A stretch of DNA of 64,000 bases from Antrihabitans auranticaus (GTDB lineage Bacteria > Actinomycetota > Actinomycetes > Mycobacteriales > Mycobacteriaceae). The translations under genes were made by a program, and so were the position numbers. The DNA is taken from positions 1-64,000 of the forward strand of contig NZ_JAEMNW010000012.1 in the NCBI RefSeq assembly GCF_016481275.1, in the 5' to 3' direction. The notes under the pieces are model-generated. The model was not told the DNA's origin. It saw nothing but the letters and a program-made list of their open reading frames with translations, and did no database searches. Below are positions 32,818 to 43,186 of this stretch, one piece after another (position 1 is the first letter of the stretch; every line of letters begins with the position of its first letter).

Positions 32818-34017
32818 TCACCGCGCGATCGGCGCCCGGGAGTCGGGCACACCTGCGTAGTCGGGCAGCTCGACGCCGTTGATCGCGCGCCCGATAAGGT
32901 CGGTGAACCACTCGCTCTCGAAGTCGACGCTCGGTTCGGCGTCCGGTCCGGTGGCTTCACGGCTGTGCACATGCAACCGGCCGATCTCCTGGTTGGCCTC
33001 GACGAACGAGCGCATGTGCCGCTCGTACGCAGCGAACCCGGCTTCCGGGTCCCAGTCGGCGGCGGCCAACTCGCCGGCAAGTAGGTACGCGCCGACCAAG
33101 GCGAGCCCGGTGCCGGCACCCGACATCGGTGATGCGCTGAACGCCGCGTCACCGAGCAGGCCGACGCGACCGCTCGACCAGCGGTCCATCACCACCTGGG
33201 CGACCTGGTCGAGGTAGAAGTCCGGGGTGTCGTCGAGATGCGCGAGGATGCGCGGAGTCAACCAGCCGAAGTCGGCCATCTGCTCGCGCAAAAGGCTCTT
33301 CTGAGCCTCGATATCGCGATAGTCGACGGCGAAGTCGGCCGCGGGAAAAGACAACATGGCCATCGCACGGGTCGGGTCCCCGATGGGCCGCAGACCGGCG
33401 GAGCGACCAGACTCCTGGTAGTCGATCACCCAACGGTCCACGTCGAACTCGTTGGGCACTGTGTAGAAGGCCAGCACGAGCCCGAGGTGGCGGACGTACC
33501 GCTCGCGCGGCCCGAAGACCTGCTCGCGCAGCGACGAGTGCAACCCGTCCGCCCCGATGACAATGTCGAAGCGCTGCCGGTCGCCGCTCGCGAAGAGGAC
33601 GTCGACCCCGTCGGCGTCCTGGGTGAGCTCGGCGATCCGGTTGCCGAAGATGTACGCGACGTCGTCGTGGGTGTCGTCGTAGAGCACCTGGGACAGAGTG
33701 CCGCGCAGGATTTCGATCTCCGAGATGTAACCGTCGCCGCCGTCGTCGTCCGCGCGGTAGGTCTCGAGCACTTTCCCGTCGACGTCCACGGTGTACGCGC
33801 CGGCGGTATCGGTGCGGGCCGCGCGAACCTCCGCGTCCAGCCCCATCCGCCGGATCACCTCTTTCGCGATCCCACGCGCATCGACCGCCTGCCCACCGGG
33901 CCGCAAACCGGGCGCCCGCTCGACCACGGTGACCTCGGCCCCGCGCCGAAAGAGCCAGTGGGCCAACGCCGGTCCCGCGATGCTCGCCCCCGCAACCAAC
34001 ACTTTGATACCGCTCAT
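32818..34017 (-). CDS. FAD-dependent monooxygenase (paralogue)
   Basis: 399 residues of the same class A flavin monooxygenase family as the 12.8-14.0 kb gene: VLVAGASIAGPALAHWLFRR with the FAD motif at the N-terminus, LRPGGQAVDARGIAKEVIRR, IVIGADGLHSSLREQVFGPR, and GLLGDAAFSASPMSGAGTGL in the second FAD segment. The two copies share the PALAHWL and RPGGQ signatures but differ elsewhere, so they are paralogues with probably different substrates. The gene marks the left end of the ordinary catabolic region; the accessory island begins upstream of it. Confidence 0.88.
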   Translation of the reverse strand: MSGIKVLVAGASIAGPALAHWLFRRGAEVTVVERAPGLRPGGQAVDARGIAKEVIRRMGLDAEVRAARTDTAGAYTVDVDGKVLETYRADDDGGDGYISEIEILRGTLSQVLYDDTHDDVAYIFGNRIAELTQDADGVDVLFASGDRQRFDIVIGADGLHSSLREQVFGPRERYVRHLGLVLAFYTVPNEFDVDRWVIDYQESGRSAGLRPIGDPTRAMAMLSFPAADFAVDYRDIEAQKSLLREQMADFGWLTPRILAHLDDTPDFYLDQVAQVVMDRWSSGRVGLLGDAAFSASPMSGAGTGLALVGAYLLAGELAAADWDPEAGFAAYERHMRSFVEANQEIGRLHVHSREATGPDAEPSVDFESEWFTDLIGRAINGVELPDYAGVPDSRAPIAR

Positions 34018-34935: not shown

Positions 34936-35300
34936 ACAATGGGTACGTTTCAAACGATGTGGATCGGGATTCAGCAGCACTCGGTGATATGCCTCCTCGG
35001 TCGTTGTACGGACGGTAGGCCGTACGCCGAACTGGCGGTGCTGTCCGGCTTGTCGGCAACGCCGGGACCGCTCGACTTCGTAGCTACCCGCAGCACACAC
35101 GGCAGCAGGCAGTCCAGACGGCCGGGCACTGTCCCGTGGGGAGAGCAACTAGCGCTCCGAGGCCGCAGCTGTGCCCGCATCCGAAAAGCGTGGAGAGTTC
35201 CGCCGGATGCTCATCCGTATTGATGATACGAATGTTCAACACGTGAACTGGCGGGCTGGTGCCGTCCGGTCGTCGGGTCGATCCCCGGAAGGAATATTGC
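34936..35300. other. Leader region upstream of the anti-phage deaminase gene
   Basis: 365 bp with no convincing protein gene; frames on either strand lack family signals. It ends in the ribosome site GGAAGGAAT before ATG 35301. AvcD-type deaminases are known to be held inactive by a small RNA (AvcI) encoded directly upstream, so this stretch is the place where such an RNA would be expected. I cannot recognise AvcI by sequence; the RNA is inferred. Confidence 0.3.
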
Positions 35301-36914
35301 ATGAAGTCCGACAAGGAGAAGGACCGGCTTCTTTCTGGCATCGATGTCGATCGGCCGGAGATCGTGATCGGCCTTGTCGGGGCGATTGGAACGCGACTCG
35401 GTGAGGTGGAGGCCAAGCTCGAGCGCGCGCTCACGAGTGTTGGCTACCGGACGAGCCGTCTTCGAGTGAGCGCGGCGATCACGGAGGCCACCGCTCGCCG
35501 AGCCGCCGAGATACCGGAATCGCTCACCAAGGTCGATCGATTGATGGACCAGGGCGACTTTCTTCGCGAACAGATCAAGCACGGTGGTGCGGCTGCAGCG
35601 CTCGCGATCACCGAGATCGCGGGCGAACGAAACGAGGGTCTTACGGGCGGCGAGTCTCGCGCCGAGCGTGAAGGTTTTGCCACAATCGTCCGACAGTTGA
35701 AGCATCCGAAGGAAGTCCAGCTGCTCCGAGCTGTATACGGACCGAGGTTCATCCTGATCGGTGCTTGGGCGCCGGAGGAGGAGCGACGGAAAGCCACCCA
35801 AGATTCGCTACGCAGCCATCATCCGGGAGAGTCGGCGTCGTTCTATACCGACAATGCCGCGCGGCTGACCGAGCGCGACGAGAAAGACGCCACCAAGCCG
35901 CTCGGTCAAAGCGTACGGAAAACGTTCGAACTGGCTGACGCTTTCGTGGCTCTCATCCCAGGACAAGATTCCGCAGATCAAATCAGCAGGATCGTGGAGT
36001 TGTTGTTCGGGAGCCCATTCATCACACCTACTCGCGACGAGCACGCCATGGCTCACGCGGCAGCCGCAAGCCTGCGTTCATCGGATGCCGGTCGGCAGGT
36101 CGGCGCAGTTGTCGCCGACGAGGACGGTGAGATCTTGGTGACCGGGGTCAACGAGGTTCCCAAACCTGGTGGCGGGCAGTACTGGCCGGACCACAATCCG
36201 GATCATCGAGACTTTCAGTCCGGCTTCGATGTCAACGAACGGCTGAAACTCACTCTGATCACCGACATCCTGGCGAAGTTGCAGCAGGCAGGGGGCTGGC
36301 TGTCGGCGAAGTGTCAGGACGAGGAGTTGAGCAAGCTGGCGCACCGAGCGGTCGTCGACGGACCGTTGACCGACAGTCGTGTGACCGGCATTCTCGAGTT
36401 CGGTCGGGTTGCGCATGCCGAGATGGCGGCGATCTGCACTGCGGCGCGTCGGGGGACTGCGATCGGTGGTGAAACGATGTACTCGACCACCTATCCGTGC
36501 CATGAATGTGCTCGGTTGATCATTGCCAGCGGGATACAACGGGTGGTGTACATCGATCCGTACCCGAAATCTCAGGTGCCGGAGATGTATCCCCATCAGA
36601 TCGTCGACGGAAGTGCTCCGACTACGAATCGATCGGACGTAGTGACGTTCGAACCGTTCCGGGGTGTGGCTCCACGCCTGTATCGATCTGTGTTCATGAT
36701 GCCTGACCGCGGGCGAGAGGACCTGACCGGCGAATACGCGTCGTGGGATGCGGCTGAGGCTGCACCCCGGCTCGTCGCGGACGCCGAAGCCATCCATTCC
36801 GTCATCGACGTCGAGCAGGGGGTGATCGGCGAAACACGGAAAGTGCTCGCTGAACTCGGCTTCCTTCCCGCAGGTGGGAGCCACGCCGACAGCGAGAAAG
36901 CCGTGCAGAGCTGA
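35301..36914 (+). CDS. avcD: Anti-phage dCTP deaminase (AvcD type)
   Basis: 537 residues from ATG 35301 with GGAAGGAAT upstream. The N-terminal P-loop-like nucleotide-binding domain opens IVIGLVGAIGTRLGEVEAKL (degenerate Walker A at residues 24-34). The C-terminal zinc-dependent cytidine-deaminase fold has the HAE motif in GRVAHAEMAAI (His372, Glu374) and the PCxxC motif in TTYPCHECARLI (Cys400, Cys403). This two-domain design is that of anti-phage dCTP/dCMP deaminases, which deplete dCTP in infected cells, and differs entirely from the housekeeping dcd at 43.3 kb. Its neighbours (AbiEi remnant, ubiquitin-like operon, nuclease) support a defence role. Activity control by an upstream RNA is inferred. 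Confidence 0.88.
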   Translation: MKSDKEKDRLLSGIDVDRPEIVIGLVGAIGTRLGEVEAKLERALTSVGYRTSRLRVSAAITEATARRAAEIPESLTKVDRLMDQGDFLREQIKHGGAAAALAITEIAGERNEGLTGGESRAEREGFATIVRQLKHPKEVQLLRAVYGPRFILIGAWAPEEERRKATQDSLRSHHPGESASFYTDNAARLTERDEKDATKPLGQSVRKTFELADAFVALIPGQDSADQISRIVELLFGSPFITPTRDEHAMAHAAAASLRSSDAGRQVGAVVADEDGEILVTGVNEVPKPGGGQYWPDHNPDHRDFQSGFDVNERLKLTLITDILAKLQQAGGWLSAKCQDEELSKLAHRAVVDGPLTDSRVTGILEFGRVAHAEMAAICTAARRGTAIGGETMYSTTYPCHECARLIIASGIQRVVYIDPYPKSQVPEMYPHQIVDGSAPTTNRSDVVTFEPFRGVAPRLYRSVFMMPDRGREDLTGEYASWDAAEAAPRLVADAEAIHSVIDVEQGVIGETRKVLAELGFLPAGGSHADSEKAVQS

Positions 36915-36972
36915 CCCCGTGTCCCGGATCTCTAGATTTGTCGGTGTCGTGTGGTGAGATATCTACAAGGGT

Positions 36973-37241
36973 ATGGTTTGGGTGGATCTGGAGGGTATGT
37001 TGAGCGAATCGCGAATGATGGCCGAGTTTGCCCGAGCCGAGGCACGTGCAAGTAACAATTCTCAGGGTGGTTCTCGACCGGTAATCGTTCGGTCGACCCC
37101 GGTCACCCGCGCGAGTGTCATGCGGAGCAATCGCTCGTCGTCGACCCGAAGCAGCAAGGGTACGACGAGGTAGCAATCGGAACCGTCGAGTATCTGGACG
37201 AACCGGTTGCGGGAACACCGCGACTGGTTCACTGCATGTAA
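36973..37241 (+). pseudogene. Small frameshifted gene after avcD (unrecognised)
   Basis: An ATG at 36973 opens MVWVDLEGMLSESRMMAEFA, then RAEARASNNSQ. Around 37056-37080 the protein-like signal moves into another frame, where DPGHPRECHAEQSLVVDPKQ, then QGYDEVAIGTVEYLDEPVAG, then TPRLVHCM runs to TAA 37239-37241. That frame has no start codon of its own and is open only from 37056. Together they would give a protein of about 88 residues. This looks like a single-nucleotide frameshift in a small gene co-directional with avcD. A sequencing error or programmed frameshift cannot be excluded. I do not recognise the family. Confidence 0.35.
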
Positions 37242-37276
37242 GTCGGCGAGTCAACGGGCCTCACAATGCTGGATAC

Positions 37277-37732
37277 TCATTCCTGTCGCCAGAGCCTTCG
37301 GCGTAGTCGGTCCCACCGCGTACTGTGCTGTTGCTTACCTTCCGGCTTGTGCGACGCGTCGGGTATGTCTAACGGTCCGTCGTCGCTACCGGTCCATTCA
37401 TCGTACTTGAGCGCAAATCGGTCCTGTGTCCGGTTGCGGGCGATCTCGATCGGGGAGAACTGTCGAGCAGGGTGGACGCGCCCACGATCGAGGACGTAGT
37501 GGGACCGGCATGGCAGGGTCCAATTCCCCACGGACGGCCACAGCGAGATGTTGTGCCCGTCGTAGGTGATGGACCACTGTGCCGGGGAGAGCGGGGTGAC
37601 GACCTCCTGGCCGCATCCACAGGCGCAGAGGTGCATGCAGGTGCCGAACTCGATGGACACGTAGAACACGCCGGCGTCAGGGGCGGTCGGGAACATGTCG
37701 ACGAACTCGGGCCTCAGGCGTTCGATCTTCAC
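37277..37732 (-). CDS. DUF6527 family protein of the ubiquitin-like operon
   Basis: 151 residues. A cysteine-rich metal site is evident: CMHLCACGCGQEVVTPLSP (Cys32, 36, 38, 40) and GNWTLPCRSHYVL (Cys75, His78), with a SLWPSVGNW beta segment between them, the pattern of DUF6527. These proteins co-occur with multiubiquitin Ubl and DUF6791-ThiF genes. I recall recent proposals that DUF6527 is the Ubl-processing or deconjugating peptidase of such operons (BubE), but cannot verify this here. The start ATG at 37732 overlaps the E1 stop by 4 bp (ATGA), so it is translationally coupled as the last gene of the operon. The basic tail (RWDRLRRRLWRQE) is variable. Confidence 0.82.
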   Translation of the reverse strand: MKIERLRPEFVDMFPTAPDAGVFYVSIEFGTCMHLCACGCGQEVVTPLSPAQWSITYDGHNISLWPSVGNWTLPCRSHYVLDRGRVHPARQFSPIEIARNRTQDRFALKYDEWTGSDDGPLDIPDASHKPEGKQQHSTRWDRLRRRLWRQE

Positions 37733-38916
37733 TCGCCGGTCTCCTCGTCGGGCGCCTCGTTGGTGACGTCGTTGGTGTAGATCGAGTAGGTCGCGAACGT
37801 CTCACCGGTGCCGTCGGCGTAGAAGCCGAGAGAGCGTTTCCACCGGCCGACGGCGAGCGTCGCGTTCAACGCATTCAGGTCGGCTACTTGGATGTTGCGG
37901 TCATAGTCGTCGCGTTCGACTGCAGGTTTCGGGATCCGCGCCAACGCCGCAGCAGTGTCGCCGCCGGGTGCGGCGAAGACGATCCGGAGCAAACCCGACA
38001 GCTTGGCGTCGATCTCTTCCACACCCATACCGACATCGATGAACGGAATCCCGCGCCGGGACAGATGAGCGGCAATCGTCGGCTTCATCGTCGCGTCGTC
38101 CATCGCGACGAAGACGAAGGTTGCGCCGTCGAGGAGGGCCAAGTTCTCGGCGGTGATACATGTGCGCTCGGTTGCGATGCCGGTGTGCATCCGCCCGTAC
38201 AGATCGGCGAAGTAGTCGACCTTCGCGGGGCGTTCACGCAGCTGGTCGAGGGCCGCTGCACCGGGGGCCCGAAACGCGTTGTGGTTGTCGAAGGTGTCGT
38301 CGTCGACGAGCAGGATGCTCTCGACGGGTGTCTTGGCGACCTGGTCGAGGATGTAGCCGCCGGTGCCGCCGAGTCCGATGATGACGATCCGCTGCTCGAG
38401 GAACACCTGGTTGAGCGCGGCGAGCCCTGCGCGCGAAGAGGCGGTGTCGCGGTAACGGAAGGGCAGGTCGTCTTCGGCTTCCTGCCACGCCGCGCCGGGC
38501 GTGGCGATCACGTTGTCGTCGAGCGCCATCGCGGGGTGGCTCAGAATGCGGACGTAGGCGGTGACCTTTTCGTACTGGGACGGGTAGCCGTCAGGGCCGG
38601 GTTTGCTCGACAACATGAACCGCGCGGCGAGTTCGTCCGAAACGACTCGGGCCTCGGGGTTCGCCAGGCTCAGCGGCACGCCGTGCTCGTTGCACGGTGT
38701 CGTGCCGCCGAACCAGATCCGGTGGTCGGTGTCGGAGACGATCCGCTCACCGCTGACGGTCACGGGGTAGGTGAGGAACCCGTAGGTGACGGTCCTGTCG
38801 ACCGTCACGTACGGGATTTGGCGTATCAGAAGGTGGTTGGCCACGATGCTGACGTCGTATCCGTCGTAGAGGAGACGGCGGAGGTCGCCATCACGAGCGA
38901 GAGGTGCGGTAGACAT
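37729..38916 (-). CDS. E1-like ThiF adenylyltransferase with N-terminal DUF6791
   Basis: 395 residues from ATG 38916. Residues 1 to about 165 fit the DUF6791 domain (IRQIPYVTVDRTVTYGFLTY, then WFGGTTPCNEHGVPL). From about residue 175 comes a ThiF/E1 adenylation domain: IVIIGLGGTGGYILDQVAKT (ATP loop), ILLVDDDTFDNHNAFRAPGA (Asp and Asn/Arg contacts), and FVFVAMDDATMKPTIAAHL. Canonical E1 proteins have two CxxC zinc pairs and a catalytic cysteine; this protein has only two cysteines (Cys75 in DUF6791 and one in ERTCITAENL), so zinc knuckles are absent. It would adenylate the Ubl C-terminus. It overlaps the Ubl gene by 26 bp and the DUF6527 gene by 4 bp. Confidence 0.85.
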   Translation of the reverse strand: MSTAPLARDGDLRRLLYDGYDVSIVANHLLIRQIPYVTVDRTVTYGFLTYPVTVSGERIVSDTDHRIWFGGTTPCNEHGVPLSLANPEARVVSDELAARFMLSSKPGPDGYPSQYEKVTAYVRILSHPAMALDDNVIATPGAAWQEAEDDLPFRYRDTASSRAGLAALNQVFLEQRIVIIGLGGTGGYILDQVAKTPVESILLVDDDTFDNHNAFRAPGAAALDQLRERPAKVDYFADLYGRMHTGIATERTCITAENLALLDGATFVFVAMDDATMKPTIAAHLSRRGIPFIDVGMGVEEIDAKLSGLLRIVFAAPGGDTAAALARIPKPAVERDDYDRNIQVADLNALNATLAVGRWKRSLGFYADGTGETFATYSIYTNDVTNEAPDEETGE

Positions 38917-39175
38917 CGAACACCATCTTGTTCTTGACCTTGACACTGCGGCCCGGGGTGAGCGAGCCCTCACGCTTGTCCTGGTGACCGCGAGTGAACC
39001 GGACCGTCACCTCCTCGCCGTCGCCGACCGGATGGCCGGGATACGTGAGTTCGACGACCTCCTCGTAGGAGATCGTCCGCTCCGCCCACTCGTGCGGTCG
39101 CGTGTTCACCACAATCGTGACCGTGCGGTCGTGGTGCTCGTGACCGACCGTCGTCTCGATCTCGGGTGCCGTCAT
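38891..39175 (-). CDS. Ubiquitin-like protein (single multiubiquitin-type domain)
   Basis: 94 residues from ATG 39175, with GGAG 8 nt upstream. After a short polar arm comes one beta-grasp domain of the multiubiquitin family: TVTIVVNTRPHEWAERTISY, then EEVVELTYPG, then VTVRFTRGHQDKREGSLTPG, then SVKVKNKMVFDVYRTSRS to the end. Relatives carry one to several such domains in tandem; here there is a single one. The C-terminus is ...YRTSRS, with no Gly-Gly, so conjugation would need trimming or use a different terminal residue. First gene of the Ubl-E1-DUF6527 operon and divergent from an XRE regulator across a strong palindrome. Confidence 0.85.
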   Translation of the reverse strand: MTAPEIETTVGHEHHDRTVTIVVNTRPHEWAERTISYEEVVELTYPGHPVGDGEEVTVRFTRGHQDKREGSLTPGRSVKVKNKMVFDVYRTSRS

Positions 39176-39206
39176 AACGCTGCTCCTGTTCTGTATCGAA
39201 TGTAAC

Positions 39207-39232
39207 GCACTGCTCGAAATATCGAGCAGTGC
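39207..39232. promoter_or_regulatory. Palindromic operator in the Ubl/XRE divergent promoter
   Basis: GCACTGCTCGA (39207-39217), 4-bp spacer AATA, TCGAGCAGTGC (39222-39232): a perfect 11-bp inverted repeat. A third copy of the half-site, TCGAGCAGTGC, lies at 39258-39268 just ahead of the XRE gene. Such a palindrome plus half-site suits binding by the adjacent XRE protein with control of both directions. Binding is inferred. Confidence 0.7.
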
Positions 39233-39286
39233 TAGCATAGCAGGCATGACCGACATGTCGAGCAGTGCACGCAATGTGGGGCAACG

Positions 39287-39661
39287 TTGACGGGCGGGCC
39301 CACCGTCGATGTGAAGTCGCTACACGCGGCGATGGACGCAGCCCGCGCGCAGGCCGGCCTGTCGTGGCGACAAGTCGCGAAAGAACTCGGAGTCAGCGCC
39401 TCGACCATCTCTCGGATGGCACAAGGTCTTCGGCCTGACGTGACCGCATTCGCGGCAATGACCACCTGGCTCCGGATGCCGGCCGAGAAGTTCTATCAGA
39501 ACGCTGATCGATCGGATCGAGACCCGGACCTCGTGGCGTCGCTAGGACCGTTGCTTCGAGCACGAAGCGACCTGACCGAGAAGGATGTCTCCTACCTTGA
39601 AGACGTCATCGCAGCAGCCGCCCGCCGATTCAAATCCGAGCGCGAAGAGAGCCCCGATTAG
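39287..39661 (+). CDS. XRE-family HTH regulator
   Basis: About 124 residues from TTG 39287 behind GGGG, or 116 from GTG 39311; the start is uncertain. The HTH is clear: GLSWRQVAKELGVSASTISR, then MAQGLRPDVTAFAAMTTWL. A C-terminal helical tail follows. It is divergent from the ubiquitin-like operon, and the ImmA/IrrE gene follows in an overlapping or tightly coupled arrangement. XRE-ImmA/IrrE pairs commonly act as repressor plus repressor-cleaving metallopeptidase in mobile elements (the ImmR/ImmA paradigm), which suggests that the operon is induced by DNA damage or infection. Confidence 0.85.
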   Translation: MTGGPTVDVKSLHAAMDAARAQAGLSWRQVAKELGVSASTISRMAQGLRPDVTAFAAMTTWLRMPAEKFYQNADRSDRDPDLVASLGPLLRARSDLTEKDVSYLEDVIAAAARRFKSEREESPD

Positions 39662-40238
39662 ACGGCGGACCGCGTGGACACAATCGCGCATGCGTGAGGT
39701 CGCCCAGGAGGAACGCAGCGGCCTCGGGTTGAACGACCATGAGCCGCTCGACCCCTATGCCCTCGCCCGCGAGCACGGCATACCCGTATACACCCTATCC
39801 GACCTGCGCGACCACGATCTGGAACCCGACGCCCTGGACCACTTCCACGGAGCAAGCACCTCGTCGTGGTCGGCTGCTCTAATCCCGTTCGATACGGCGA
39901 GAATCATCGTCGAAAACGATGCGCACTCGCTGGTGCGACGGCGCAGCAACATTGCCCACGAACTCGGTCACCATCTCCTCGAGCACTCCTTCGACAACGT
40001 CATCCTCGGCGAGGACCACAAGCGGCAGTTCGACACCCACCAGGAAAAGCAGGCGAAGTTCATGTCGGGTGAACTTCTGATTCCCGACAAAGCCGCTCGC
40101 CGCGCCGCATACGACAACTGGGACAACGCCCAGGTTGCCCGCGCCTTCGCCGTCAGTGAACAGTTCGCCCAGATGCGAATGTATGGCGCCAGGGTGATCG
40201 CCGAACGGGCCGCAAAGAAATTCGGAATCTCCCGGTAG
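39585..40238 (+). CDS. ImmA/IrrE family metallopeptidase
   Basis: Up to 217 residues. The zinc-protease motif HELGHHLLEH lies in SNIAHELGHHLLEHSFDN, followed by the EKQAKFMSGELLIPDKAA segment whose Glu completes the site; both are diagnostic of ImmA/IrrE peptidases. Homology appears to begin at RRRTAWTQSRMREVAQEERS, before the ATG at 39690, so translation probably starts upstream inside the XRE gene. ATG 39585 would overlap XRE by 77 bp, and the exact start is unresolved. Its likely substrate is the neighbouring XRE repressor. An alternative is that it processes a component of the ubiquitin-like system. Confidence 0.85.
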   Translation: MSPTLKTSSQQPPADSNPSAKRAPIRRRTAWTQSRMREVAQEERSGLGLNDHEPLDPYALAREHGIPVYTLSDLRDHDLEPDALDHFHGASTSSWSAALIPFDTARIIVENDAHSLVRRRSNIAHELGHHLLEHSFDNVILGEDHKRQFDTHQEKQAKFMSGELLIPDKAARRAAYDNWDNAQVARAFAVSEQFAQMRMYGARVIAERAAKKFGISR

Positions 40239-40241
40239 CCT

Positions 40242-40422: not shown

Positions 40423-40704
40423 GTGAATATGCATGGACCCGATTTGCCTCCGGCAGACATGCCGTTCGATATCGACTCTTTCGTGCACCGGTGGCCCACC
40501 GCGGTCGAAAAGAGCGAACTCGTCGACGGCCGCGTGTTGTTGTTCACCGGGATATTCGACGAGCGCGACGCCGTCATCGCGCGGCACACCTATCCGGGTC
40601 GGATCGTGCTGGTCAACCAGGGCGGCAGCCCGGAAGTCCGTCCCGGCGGCGACAGTACCGACCCGCAGTCCGTGGTCGACCGCTACCGCACCGACAGTCG
40701 ATGA
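40423..40704 (+). CDS. Small hypothetical protein upstream of nuclease
   Basis: 93 residues from GTG 40423, with GAGGA 5 nt upstream; ATG 40429 is an alternative. It is acidic and globular-looking: MPFDIDSFVHRWPTAVEKSE, then LVDGRVLLFTGIFDERDAVI, then TYPGRIVLVNQGGSPEV, with a disordered tail. There is no signal peptide, membrane segment or family I recognise. Its stop lies 19 bp before the GTG start of a nuclease-domain gene, so the two are probably co-expressed, and a control or immunity role toward the nuclease is possible but unproven. Confidence 0.6.
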   Translation: MNMHGPDLPPADMPFDIDSFVHRWPTAVEKSELVDGRVLLFTGIFDERDAVIARHTYPGRIVLVNQGGSPEVRPGGDSTDPQSVVDRYRTDSR

Positions 40705-40723
40705 CAGAAGGGACAATCATCTT

Positions 40724-41734
40724 GTGACCGATTGGCTGTCGTCGTTCGTCGACTCGCTGGAGCCCGCCGCTCCCCAAAGGACCGTGGTGTCGGTGCGAAC
40801 CATTCGCGCCGCGATCGAGGCTGCGCTGATGTCTTACACGCGTATCGATCTCGAGGTCGTTCTCGCCGACGAGCTGAAAATGCCATGGACACAGGACGAT
40901 TCCCCCTCGGATCCTCGTTACACGAAACGCGACCTGATTTCGGCTTACACCGAGGACTGGACCCTGCCGCAGCTCATCGGACTGGCGAGGCGCGTCGTCG
41001 CCGAATGCGACGCACCGGCAACCAGCGAGTTGCCGCAGCTCATCGCCGAGTTCGACAAGCGCGGCGGGGTCGCAGCGGCCCCGAAGAACTTGATCTTCGC
41101 CGCGAACGGTCCCAAACCGGAACTCGTCCTCCGCGACGCTGTCAACAACGACATCGAGATCACCAAGAACGCGGAGTTCTGCCTCGTCTTCGACGACCCC
41201 GTCCCGGCAGACGGACTCACGTTCGCGCACATGGTCGACTGGTGGCGGCGGCGCGAGCGCATGGGCGACGACCTCGACGACCGTACGGTCGGGCTGGGTC
41301 TCCATCAACGGCTCGTCGAGAGCCTGGGCGACAACGACGCCGAAAAGCTGATCTTCGACGTCTACTGCCGCCGTTACAGGGCGCACGGCTTCGGAATTCC
41401 CGCCCTGATCCCGCAGGTCTACCTTCACTACGACCCGTACACGAGTCGGCACCGTGGTGACAAGAACAAGCCGCTTGCACGTCAGCGCATGGACTTCCTG
41501 CTCCTCTTCAGCGACCGGCAAAGGGTTGTCATCGAACTCGACGGCAAGCAGCACTACTCCGACGGCAACGGTCGCGCCGATCCGGCCCTCTACGCTCGAA
41601 TGGTCGCCGAAGATCGCCGGCTCCGACTCGACGGGTACGAGGTCTATCGATTCGGCGGTGCAGAACTCACGGCGCCGGACGCGCAAGACATGCTGACGAA
41701 ATTCTTCGACGACCTGCACCGGCGCATGACCTAG
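40724..41734 (+). CDS. Predicted PD-(D/E)XK-type nuclease, abortive-infection-like
   Basis: 336 residues from GTG 40724 (AAGGGA upstream). The C-terminal domain has a PD-(D/E)XK nuclease layout: Asp257 in RQRMDFLLLFSD, then Glu271-x-Asp273-Gly-Lys275 in VVIELDGKQHYSDGNG, followed by a helix with ARMVAEDRRLRLDGYEVYRF, as in DUF559/restriction-like nucleases. The N-terminal 110 residues are a helical domain, perhaps a sensor or adaptor (TRIDLEVVLADELKMPWTQD). I recall similar proteins annotated with AbiJ-type N-terminal domains. Placed in a defence island downstream of a small protein, it is a candidate infection-triggered nuclease. Confidence 0.7.
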   Translation: MTDWLSSFVDSLEPAAPQRTVVSVRTIRAAIEAALMSYTRIDLEVVLADELKMPWTQDDSPSDPRYTKRDLISAYTEDWTLPQLIGLARRVVAECDAPATSELPQLIAEFDKRGGVAAAPKNLIFAANGPKPELVLRDAVNNDIEITKNAEFCLVFDDPVPADGLTFAHMVDWWRRRERMGDDLDDRTVGLGLHQRLVESLGDNDAEKLIFDVYCRRYRAHGFGIPALIPQVYLHYDPYTSRHRGDKNKPLARQRMDFLLLFSDRQRVVIELDGKQHYSDGNGRADPALYARMVAEDRRLRLDGYEVYRFGGAELTAPDAQDMLTKFFDDLHRRMT

Positions 41735-42429
41735 ACACCGGGGTACAGAGTGCCGCAATCGTTTTATCTTGCGATGCCGATGTCGACCACTCGAGCAGGG
41801 GACGGCGCCACCTCTATCGGTCGTCGCACGTGCCGACTTAACCGCGGACGGCACGGGACTTGATGCACGCACCGTCGCCGGGCAGGTCGAGTAGCGCGTG
41901 GACCCTTTCAGATTAACGCGACAGTGCGAAAGCGTCGACAGCCCAGCGACGAAGCAGGTCCAGCTCACAGATCTCACACGCGCCGCGGGTTGCGGATCGG
42001 ATTTCAGCGGGTCTTCGTGAACTCCTCTCGGGATCTGGGCGATATTTCGGCCGATCCCGTTTGCCCGCAGCACTGCTGCTGCGTGTAGTCGCGCGTGAAC
42101 TCCTTTGTGCGCCGGCCGCAACGACTGGCAGCGTGGCTGCGTCGGCTCAGGAAACCCCGTTCGGGTAAACGCAGCACCAGTGCTAACACACCGGATTTCG
42201 CATTCTCGAGGTTCCGTCTGTCGGGCCGCGGATTTAGGATGATCAATAATCGGTCACCACAATCGAACCGTGCCCATCGGGTGCGGCAGCAGGATTGTCG
42301 CGCAGGCGACGATCGACTCGATAGCCGATGCCTAAGGGTGGTGATCTAATCCGGCAATTGCCTCGCACATGGTGAAAGACACTTACGGCAATCGGTGTCA
42401 TTCTGATCAGCTGCCAGCGATTAACCGTC
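41735..42429. other. Gene-free stretch inside the accessory island
   Basis: About 700 bp with numerous stops in all frames and short frames only. A short near-repeat, GTGAACTCCTCTC / GTGAACTCCTTTG, occurs at about 42017 and 42088. No RNA gene, promoter pair or protein family is recognised. It looks like decayed mobile-element DNA. Confidence 0.4.
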
Positions 42430-42849
42430 ATGGCGTTCTGCATGAGGAGTTCTGCACTCATGACGATACTTCTCGTGTCGCCTGTCCGCGCCAGGCCTGC
42501 GTCGCTCCTATCAGCTTGGCTGACCGGTGTCTGCGTATACCCGTGGGGGCGCGTCGTACCGGTCCGTCACGATTGTGTGCGGCCGGTGCGACGCGTGTGT
42601 ACTGCGTCCGGGGACGACCCGCTGGTGGTCTCGCGGCGACGGGGGCCTGATCAGGCCGCCGCCCTGGTGGGATCCTTCGACACGCCCCGGGATGTCCCCC
42701 GGCTGACCGTCGCGCGACTGCGGTCGACGTGGCTGACCTCTGTGCTGACCGACCTCGCACTAGGGGAAGTGTTCGCAGCGGCGGCAATCGTCAGCGGCAA
42801 AGCCTTTTCGGACCTTTCCACATACCTCCCCGCGGCGGAGATCGGCTGA
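42430..42849 (+). pseudogene. Integrase-associated gene remnant
   Basis: A 139-codon frame whose second half looks like protein (SRRRGPDQAAALVGSFDTPR, then LTVARLRSTWLTSVLTDLAL, then IVSGKAFSDLSTYLPAAE). The first half is cysteine- and arginine-rich without a clear fold, and there is no convincing start. The LRSTWLTSVL...LSTYLP pattern recalls the C-terminal part of actinobacterial tyrosine-recombinase-like genes, but the catalytic His/Arg/Tyr are not visible, so this is probably a fragment. The next frame begins 35 bp later with its own strong ribosome site. Confidence 0.4.
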
Positions 42850-42884
42850 CCCGGTTGGCGCTGGCTCGCCGGAGGAGGGTCGTG

Positions 42885-43124
42885 ATGGTGGCGCGCACCG
42901 CAGAAGAGTTGCTCGCCCGGTAAACGCCGCAAATCGCGACTGAGAAATGGTCACTGATCGGGCCGTTCGTGCGGTCGGTGATCCGCGAGGCGTACCCGAC
43001 GAACACGCGTGCGAAAGTGTCGGCCGGCCGGATCGGCGAGGTCACCGCGCTCGTGTCGTGGGCAGTCGACGAAGGATTGCCGCTCGAACCCCCACACGAG
43101 GGAAATACCCCGTTGAGCCGATGA
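42885..43124 (+). pseudogene. Truncated tyrosine integrase-like gene, interrupted at the tRNA
   Basis: ATG 42885 follows an excellent GGAGGAGGG (42871-42879, 5 nt gap). The frame reads MVARTAEELLAR, an in-frame TAA (42921-42923), then TPQIATEKWSLIGPFVRSVI, then REAYPTNTRAKVSAGRIGEV, then TALVSWAVDEGLPLEP, and enters the tRNA 3' end. The pattern (PFVR...V...L...WA...GLPLEP) fits the N-terminal core-binding region of actinobacterial site-specific integrases. One TAC-to-TAA type change would explain the stop, and everything after about residue 70 is missing where the tRNA begins. It is a decayed integrase at an integration site. Confidence 0.5.
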
Positions 43125-43186
43125 CGGGAATCGAACCCGCGTGTCAAGCTTGGGAAGCTTGCGTTCTGCCATTGAACTACATCGGC
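43116..43186 (-). tRNA. tRNA-Gly (anticodon CCC)
   Basis: 71-nt cloverleaf on the minus strand, 5' end at 43186. The acceptor stem GCCGATG pairs with CATCGGC, the discriminator is T, the D-arm is GTTC...GAAC, the anticodon stem CAAGC/GCTTG encloses loop TTCCCAA (anticodon CCC), and the T-arm is GCGGG-TTCGATT-CCCGT. CCA is not encoded. The 3' end faces the accessory region on the left, the usual target side for tyrosine-integrase elements. Upstream of dcd a tRNA-Gly is also found in other Mycobacteriales. Confidence 0.95.

Follow-up and report, generated by a model that had tools for sequence, protein, structure and literature searches.

The cassette and its conservation

The 64,000-nucleotide stretch of Antrihabitans auranticaus DNA analysed here (contig NZ_JAEMNW010000012.1, positions 1 to 64,000; hereafter the window) carries on its minus strand, at 37277-39175, three overlapping genes that encode a ubiquitin-like protein (Ubl), an E1-like protein (E1) and a DUF6527 protein. 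A first-pass annotation had described this triad as a minimal ubiquitin-like cassette without a recognisable E2 or JAB peptidase and had related it to Bub-like operons of bacteria, a kinship that was borne out. The three-gene layout, with overlaps of 26 and 4 bp, was confirmed as follows.

38891..39175, minus strand: Ubl, 94 amino acids, one Multi_ubiq domain, ending DVYRTSRS before the stop codon
37729..38916, minus strand: E1-like protein, 395 amino acids, DUF6791 plus ThiF adenylation domain
38443..38886, minus strand: DUF6791 domain of the E1, occupying the place of JAB in the Bub E1
38891..38916, minus strand: overlap of the Ubl tail and the E1 start, 26 nt
37729-37732, minus strand: overlap of the E1 and DUF6527 genes, 4 bp
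37277..37732, minus strand: DUF6527 protein, 151 amino acids, GTG start, with a probable zinc site (C36, C40, C75, H78) plus C38

Profile searches, proposed earlier as a check, matched all four expected Pfam families in the window proteins. The Ubl gave a single matched stretch of Multi_ubiq (PF14452; E 1.5e-12, 48 bits, cut-off 24.5), in agreement with the one-domain, multiubiquitin-type protein ending in YRTSRS that had been described, and also matched PDB entry 9cd2 (E 4e-5). The E1 contained DUF6791 (PF20590, 4.5e-42) and ThiF (PF00899, 1.4e-10) and scored above the cut-off of two NCBIfam PRK06153 models named 'hypothetical protein'. The third protein matched DUF6527 (PF20137, E 1.1e-22). 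Using PADLOC, no match was obtained for the Ubl and DUF6527 proteins at E 0.01, and the E1 yielded distant E1-E2 matches only (best 1.2e-8). Among solved structures, Citrobacter BubCD is nearest to the E1 both in sequence and in fold; the fold search covered residues 154-390, and the adenylation domain filled its match list. The single-domain Ubl is real, but short Ubls are common in the branch, with at most 111 amino acids in 19 of 27 loci. Ubl domains were counted by Pfam in the window (one) and in loci L021 and L022 (three each).

We examined 38 loci found via E1 or DUF6791, comprising the window, 11 genome contigs, 17 plasmid stretches and 9 further loci. The full triad occurred in 36 of these, the exceptions being L015, which is a fragment, and L035, where DUF6791 stands alone. 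As the loci were collected through E1, this count shows that the partners travel with E1 and is not a measure of how frequent solitary Ubls are. In 34 of 36 loci the Ubl and E1 genes overlapped by precisely 26 nt, the other two (L031 and L034) having 41 nt; taken together with the triad count, this indicates that the arrangement is not due to chance. According to record titles and taxonomy lines, the triads span five phyla (Actinomycetota, Pseudomonadota, Cyanobacteriota, Bacteroidota and Bacillota), in several of which the cassette is carried by plasmids. Among 72,556 plasmid records, 115 had an E1 match (45 from Acinetobacter), and the E1 search of phage records gave no match. DUF6791 is rare, occurring in 3 of 396 genomes of the window's phylum (the window counted in) and in 8 of 398 genomes of the phylum of triad genome G496 (likewise counted in). 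The anatomy of the cassette and its conservation are the solid part of this analysis.

The final Ubl residue before the stop codon was Ser in all 36 loci, including the window. Position -4 was Thr in 33 of 36, so that the protein mostly ends in T-x-[RKQE]-S. E1 residues 7 and 8, which are encoded by the same nucleotides, varied considerably (entropy 2.56 and 1.87 bits across 34 loci), whereas the entropy of the Ser was 0. The invariance of the Ser while the E1 frame varies indicates that this residue is under selection in the Ubl. As invariance would be pointless for a residue that is always removed, the Ubl is probably synthesised in its working form, without trimming. It had been left open whether the tail is trimmed or used as it is; trimming now appears unlikely and use as made is favoured. 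In the Bub-type loci used for comparison, Gly stands at the working end of the Ubl or close to it: all six with a Ubl-E2 fusion had [NE]NG within the fusion, and the Ubls of L044 and L047 had a free end, TTTEG or TTEGGA.

The glycine-rich adenylation motif (GxGGxG; G181, G183, G184, G186) and residues R216 and K232 were present in 36 of 36 E1s. The latter two may correspond to Arg73 and Lys86 of MoeB (named in PMC12355090). As annotated before, the window E1 has two cysteines (75 and 253) and no CxxC. Neither is conserved: position 75 was Cys in 27 of 37 E1s and otherwise H, Y, L, R or F, C253 was found in 1 of 36, and the E1 of L020 is free of cysteine. This pattern indicates that an E1 thioester is not general in the family, and it does not support the earlier suggestion of Cys75 as an intermediate. 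The non-thioester intermediate suggested earlier is one possibility, and a thioester on Cys38 of DUF6527 is another. Tyr338 was almost invariant in the E1s of the E2-less branch, in a loop shorter than that of Bub. The Tyr in the Bub loop (370 in BubCD, mutated in PDB 9eav) was invariant in 8 of 8 Bub-type E1s (L024, L040-L044, L046 and L047).

Eleven DUF6791 columns were invariant among 27 sequences. The addition of 10 more removed L15 and A129, leaving G19, P35, H65, G71, P74, S103, K105, K117 and Y121 in 37 of 37. The five invariant polar residues (H65, S103, K105, K117 and Y121) suggest that DUF6791 bears an active or binding site. The lone DUF6791 protein of L035 (4022-4735), which adjoins VapBC and has no annotated ThiF, Ubl or DUF6527 partner, retains all nine invariant residues.

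DUF6527 was aligned in 35 sequences, 27 from the E2-less branch and 8 of Bub type (the ninth Bub-type locus, L045, gave none). Residues C36, C40, C75, H78, G39, P66 and S67 were invariant, the spacing in the window being C-x3-C-x34-C-x2-H. C38 was present in 33 of 35 and was missing only from Bub-type L044 and L047, both of which have an E2 of their own. C32, which had been singled out together with E1 C75, is not conserved either. The invariant Cys3His set fits a zinc site, in which case C38 or S67 might be catalytic, and DUF6527 is likely a zinc-binding helper; the peptidase role mentioned in the first-pass annotation is a further candidate function. Its AlphaFold2 model was poor (pLDDT 55).

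Search for E2 and JAB and comparison with known systems

The absence of a recognisable E2 or JAB from the cassette was borne out by profile searches. None of the 27 triad genomes or records, the window's genome among them, had a Prok-E2_E match (for 16 of the 27 the plasmid alone was covered), and the Citrobacter positive control was detected (1/1). Bub-type E2 and JAB profiles and two actinobacterial JAB proteins found nothing in 26 triad stretches, which extended about 4 to 6 kb to each side where the contig permitted. Prok-JAB had a single match in the window's genome, on another contig (C19; the cassette lies on C4), and JAB matches away from the triad were obtained in 12 of 27 triad genomes or records. 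The nearest placed JAB was about 6.5 kb from the triad on the Rhizobium plasmid of L022 and scored below the family cut-off; another was about 8.5 kb from the triad in G496. Of 11 triad genomes, G490 and G496 had a Prok-E2_B match away from the cassette, and the window's genome had none. Prok-E2_A and UQ_con, searched with no positive control, gave no match. Genome G070, which belongs to the same order and bears DUF6527, has a JAB match of Bub type (E 1e-5) in the same stretch, at 2324-3187 of L003, indicating that the order also contains Bub-type operons.

The closest known system is the Bub operon of Citrobacter (PDB 9ea4, 9ea5, 9ea8, 9eae and 9eav), which we read through the plasmid relative L024. 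There, BubA Ubl domains with Prok-E2_E (BubB in PDB) are followed by Prok-JAB with ThiF (BubCD) and DUF6527. The order of functions is the same in the window, and both systems share a multiubiquitin Ubl, a ThiF E1, DUF6527 (PF20137) as the last gene, Cap-type regulator genes and carriage on plasmids. In contrast to Bub, the window branch has no Prok-E2_E, no conserved E1 cysteine, and DUF6791 instead of the N-terminal JAB (BubC) of the E1. Whereas the Citrobacter BubA construct ends at Gly229, an end presumably exposed by cleavage, the Ubl of the window branch is unfused to E2 and has Ser at the stop codon.

A second relative is found among the type 6e operons, some of which, in the accessible part of the description by Iyer et al. 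(2006, PMC1779556), have an E1 with 'a distinct domain in place of the JAB domain (domain X in Figure 3)'. The same source mentions a solo Ubl in one type 6e species and a metal-binding protein Y (C-x3-C-x35-38-H-x2-C) with a proposed zinc site. The combination of a Ubl, an E1 with a non-JAB N-terminal domain and a metal-binding protein resembles the window cassette, and the DUF6527 spacing is close to that of protein Y with the last two ligands swapped (C-x2-H versus H-x2-C); we infer that domain X is DUF6791 and protein Y is DUF6527. In that part of the description, however, the C-terminal residue of the remaining new Ubl families is not conserved, whereas Ser is invariant here, and E2 loss, which characterises the window branch, is not stated for the domain-X branch. 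Bil systems likewise share the Ubl and E1 but add an E2 and a JAB (PMC12687455). We found no mention of DUF6791 or DUF6527 by name in the literature searched.

Judged by its sequence, the cassette is Bub-like, without E2 and JAB and with a Ser-ended tag. New here are the Ser-ended Ubls, the unconserved E1 cysteine, the invariant residues of DUF6791, the Cys3His set of DUF6527 and the regulator/palindrome setting.

Regulatory and genomic setting

Upstream of the operon and in its surroundings, the following features were identified.

39287..39661, plus strand: CapH-like helix-turn-helix (HTH) repressor, divergent from the operon (PF13560, 1.4e-8)
39585..40238, plus strand: CapP-like M78 (ImmA/IrrE) peptidase (PF06114, 8.5e-18; best PADLOC model capP, 1.5e-11); 39585 is the mechanical open reading frame start, and the true start may lie further downstream
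39234..39261, minus strand: promoter-like site reading into the Ubl operon, with TG before the -10
39207..39232, no strand: operator-like palindrome with 11-bp arms and a 4-bp gap, directly downstream of the -10
35259..36914, plus strand: anti-phage dCTP deaminase, convergent with the Ubl operon (NF041025, 420.5 bits, cut-off 400)
43115..43186, minus strand: tRNA-Gly(ccc), probable edge of a variable region; homology to G001 starts at 43115

HTH and M78 genes thus stand together beside the operon, as in CapH+CapP pairs. Pairs related in sequence to both genes lie upstream in seven other loci (L005, L008, L009, L012, L014, L020 and L025), and four further loci (L019, L030, L031 and L036) have an annotated M78 gene there, giving 12 CapHP-like cases among 27 loci, the window included. 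According to PMC13373217, 219 of 544 Bub operons have CapW or CapH+CapP next to them, and these regulators respond to DNA damage. One promoter-like site was found in 36900-39500, where shuffling expects 0.4 (standard deviation 0.6). Palindrome arms of at least 11 bp arose in 2 of 10,000 mononucleotide shuffles. The core TGCTCGA-4-TCGAGCA recurs in L005, L008, L009, L012 and L014 and, with its 7-bp arms, was not found in L020, L025 and L036.

The dCTP deaminase (PADLOC dCTPase, 1.3e-142) forms with the cassette a conserved 5-kb module that is collinear with L005, and a relative of the deaminase occurs in L009. The stretch 35300-40239, dCTP deaminase included, is 81% collinear with a contig of Antrihabitans stalagmiti. 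Three same-genus genomes resemble the window from the tRNA-Gly at 43115, or from beside it, onwards, the exception to its left being two matches of one genome at 42207-43082. The flavin adenine dinucleotide (FAD)-monooxygenase gene at 32818-34017 lies on contigs other than that of the tRNA-Gly in G002 and G003, and an att-like repeat was sought at the variable region and not found. The collinearity with A. stalagmiti, together with same-genus similarity only from the tRNA-Gly onwards, points to a mobile defence module. Beside the capP-like gene, 40433-41734 gave weak AbiJ_NTD3 and DUF559 (nuclease-like) matches below the Pfam cut-offs.

Elsewhere, triads with a long Ubl (244-278 amino acids) occur on Acinetobacter, Rhizobium, Leptolyngbya and Spirosoma plasmids (L021, L022, L023 and L027), with sigma-70-like, UvrD or nuclease genes close by. 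The Rhizobium triad adjoins a calcineurin-like DNA repair exonuclease and YhaN, and the long-Ubl triads are perhaps a larger system linked to DNA repair. In Cytobacillus (L028, 1692-9098), a DarT-like ADP-ribosyltransferase and a macro-domain gene lie downstream of the triad, and a HATPase and MarR pair resembling CapK/CapS lies upstream.

Possible conjugation routes and their meaning

The family matches, the gene order, the lack of E2 and JAB, the Ser end, the unconserved E1 cysteine, the DUF6791 residues and the Cys3His set together support a reading of the cassette as an E2-less and JAB-less sister branch of Bub (type 6e multiubiquitin) that is probably induced by DNA damage. We hold this reading tentatively, a little short of an even chance; that the cassette conjugates protein, by which chemistry and to which target, we infer from the sequences. 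The Ubl would be translated with a working C-terminus, making a processing peptidase unnecessary, and the ThiF domain would adenylate its C-terminal carboxylate. Neither an E1 thioester nor a separate E2 would then be involved in passing the acyl group to a target; the E1-fused DUF6791, with its five invariant polar residues, is the likeliest place for its acceptance or transfer. DUF6527 might recruit or orient the target or recycle the tag. The CapH-like repressor would silence the operon at the divergent promoter until DNA damage, such as that of a phage attack, leads to its removal by the CapP-like peptidase.

A stricter version appears doubtful as a whole. Conjugation would be free of cysteine, E2 and peptidase, the Ubl would be mature from the start with an obligatory C-terminal Ser, and DUF6791 would offer a non-thioester site, for instance an oxyester. 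The side chain of the Ser would also participate, for example by closing into an activated ring or by turning the adenylate into the direct donor. If true, it would reduce tagging to one tag, one enzyme and one helper, and we know of no smaller complete Ubl pathway.

Several observations weigh against a DNA damage-induced, E2-less sister branch of Bub. The Ubl of Bub-type L045, where an E2 gene follows and the E1 is annotated as short, ends in GQES, so that a Ser end is not exclusive to the E2-less branch. DUF6791 had no match among PDB sequences (best E 2.1), and comparison of its profile with E2 and JAB profiles (small profiles) yielded nothing. The PADLOC capH match is weak (1.3e-3), with RmrA models scoring better, and 15 of 27 loci show no such pair or have other regulator genes. 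According to the EMBO J paper (PMC13373217), Bub operons are not known to protect against phage. Finally, C38 of DUF6527 is kept in all 36 triads, which makes a thioester on DUF6527 possible.

This last point leads to an unlikely alternative, namely that DUF6527 is the missing transferase and receives the Ubl on Cys38 of CxCGC as an E2/E3-like thioester carrier built on the C36/C40/C75/H78 zinc site. An invariant motif surrounds C38, which is retained by all 27 aligned triads and by 9 others; only L044 and L047, with their own E2, have lost it. No other cysteine conserved in the cassette could be spared by the zinc site. However, DUF6527 also stands beside an E2 in Bub operons, with C38 in 6 of 8 of them, C38 may be just a ligand, and the poor structure model lends little help.

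Among ThiF-fold enzymes, MccB activates the non-Gly C-terminus of a short peptide, MccA, and neither a Ubl nor DUF6527 is known to be involved. It shares its fold with the window E1, and its structure ranked 10th in the Foldseek list. By analogy, an acyl-adenylate or a small molecule derived from it could be the product here, or the Ubl could serve as a carrier, with no protein being conjugated; the non-Gly end, the absence of E2 and the lack of an E1 cysteine would fit. We regard this as distinctly unlikely, as BubCD ranks above MccB in the fold search, the annotation tables of the neighbourhoods (incomplete and partly 'hypothetical') list neither a rhodanese nor a cofactor gene, and the nearest E1 and the shared DUF6527 are those of Bub, a conjugating pathway according to the title of the paper.

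More improbable still is an ordinary E2-E1 fusion, in which DUF6791 would be an E2 (UBC/RWD) domain that has diverged strongly and uses an altered acceptor. Its predicted helix followed by strands 21-25, 28-37 and 43-51 resembles the beginning of the E2 topology, but the later strands and one long helix are unlike E2, no cysteine is conserved, and the probability of its profile against Prok-E2_E was 0.3%. E2-E1 fusions are described for related operons in PMC1779556. A supply of E2 and JAB in trans by the host is very improbable: the Prok-E2_B and JAB matches elsewhere in some triad genomes would allow it, but the window's genome has no match to any of the four E2 profiles (two of them uncontrolled), and the cassette is carried on plasmids across several phyla.

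In textbook ubiquitin pathways, the tag is prepared by a protease and relayed via E1 and E2 cysteines. The E2-less sister branch of Bub retains a tag and an activating enzyme but lacks a recognisable E2, a JAB and any conserved cysteine in the E1. It is widely scattered. The conserved Ser tail, the DUF6791 polar residues and C36, C38, C40, C75 and H78 of DUF6527 make its chemistry directly testable. If the branch does conjugate, it would show which parts are minimally required for tagging and which chemistry replaces the thioester.

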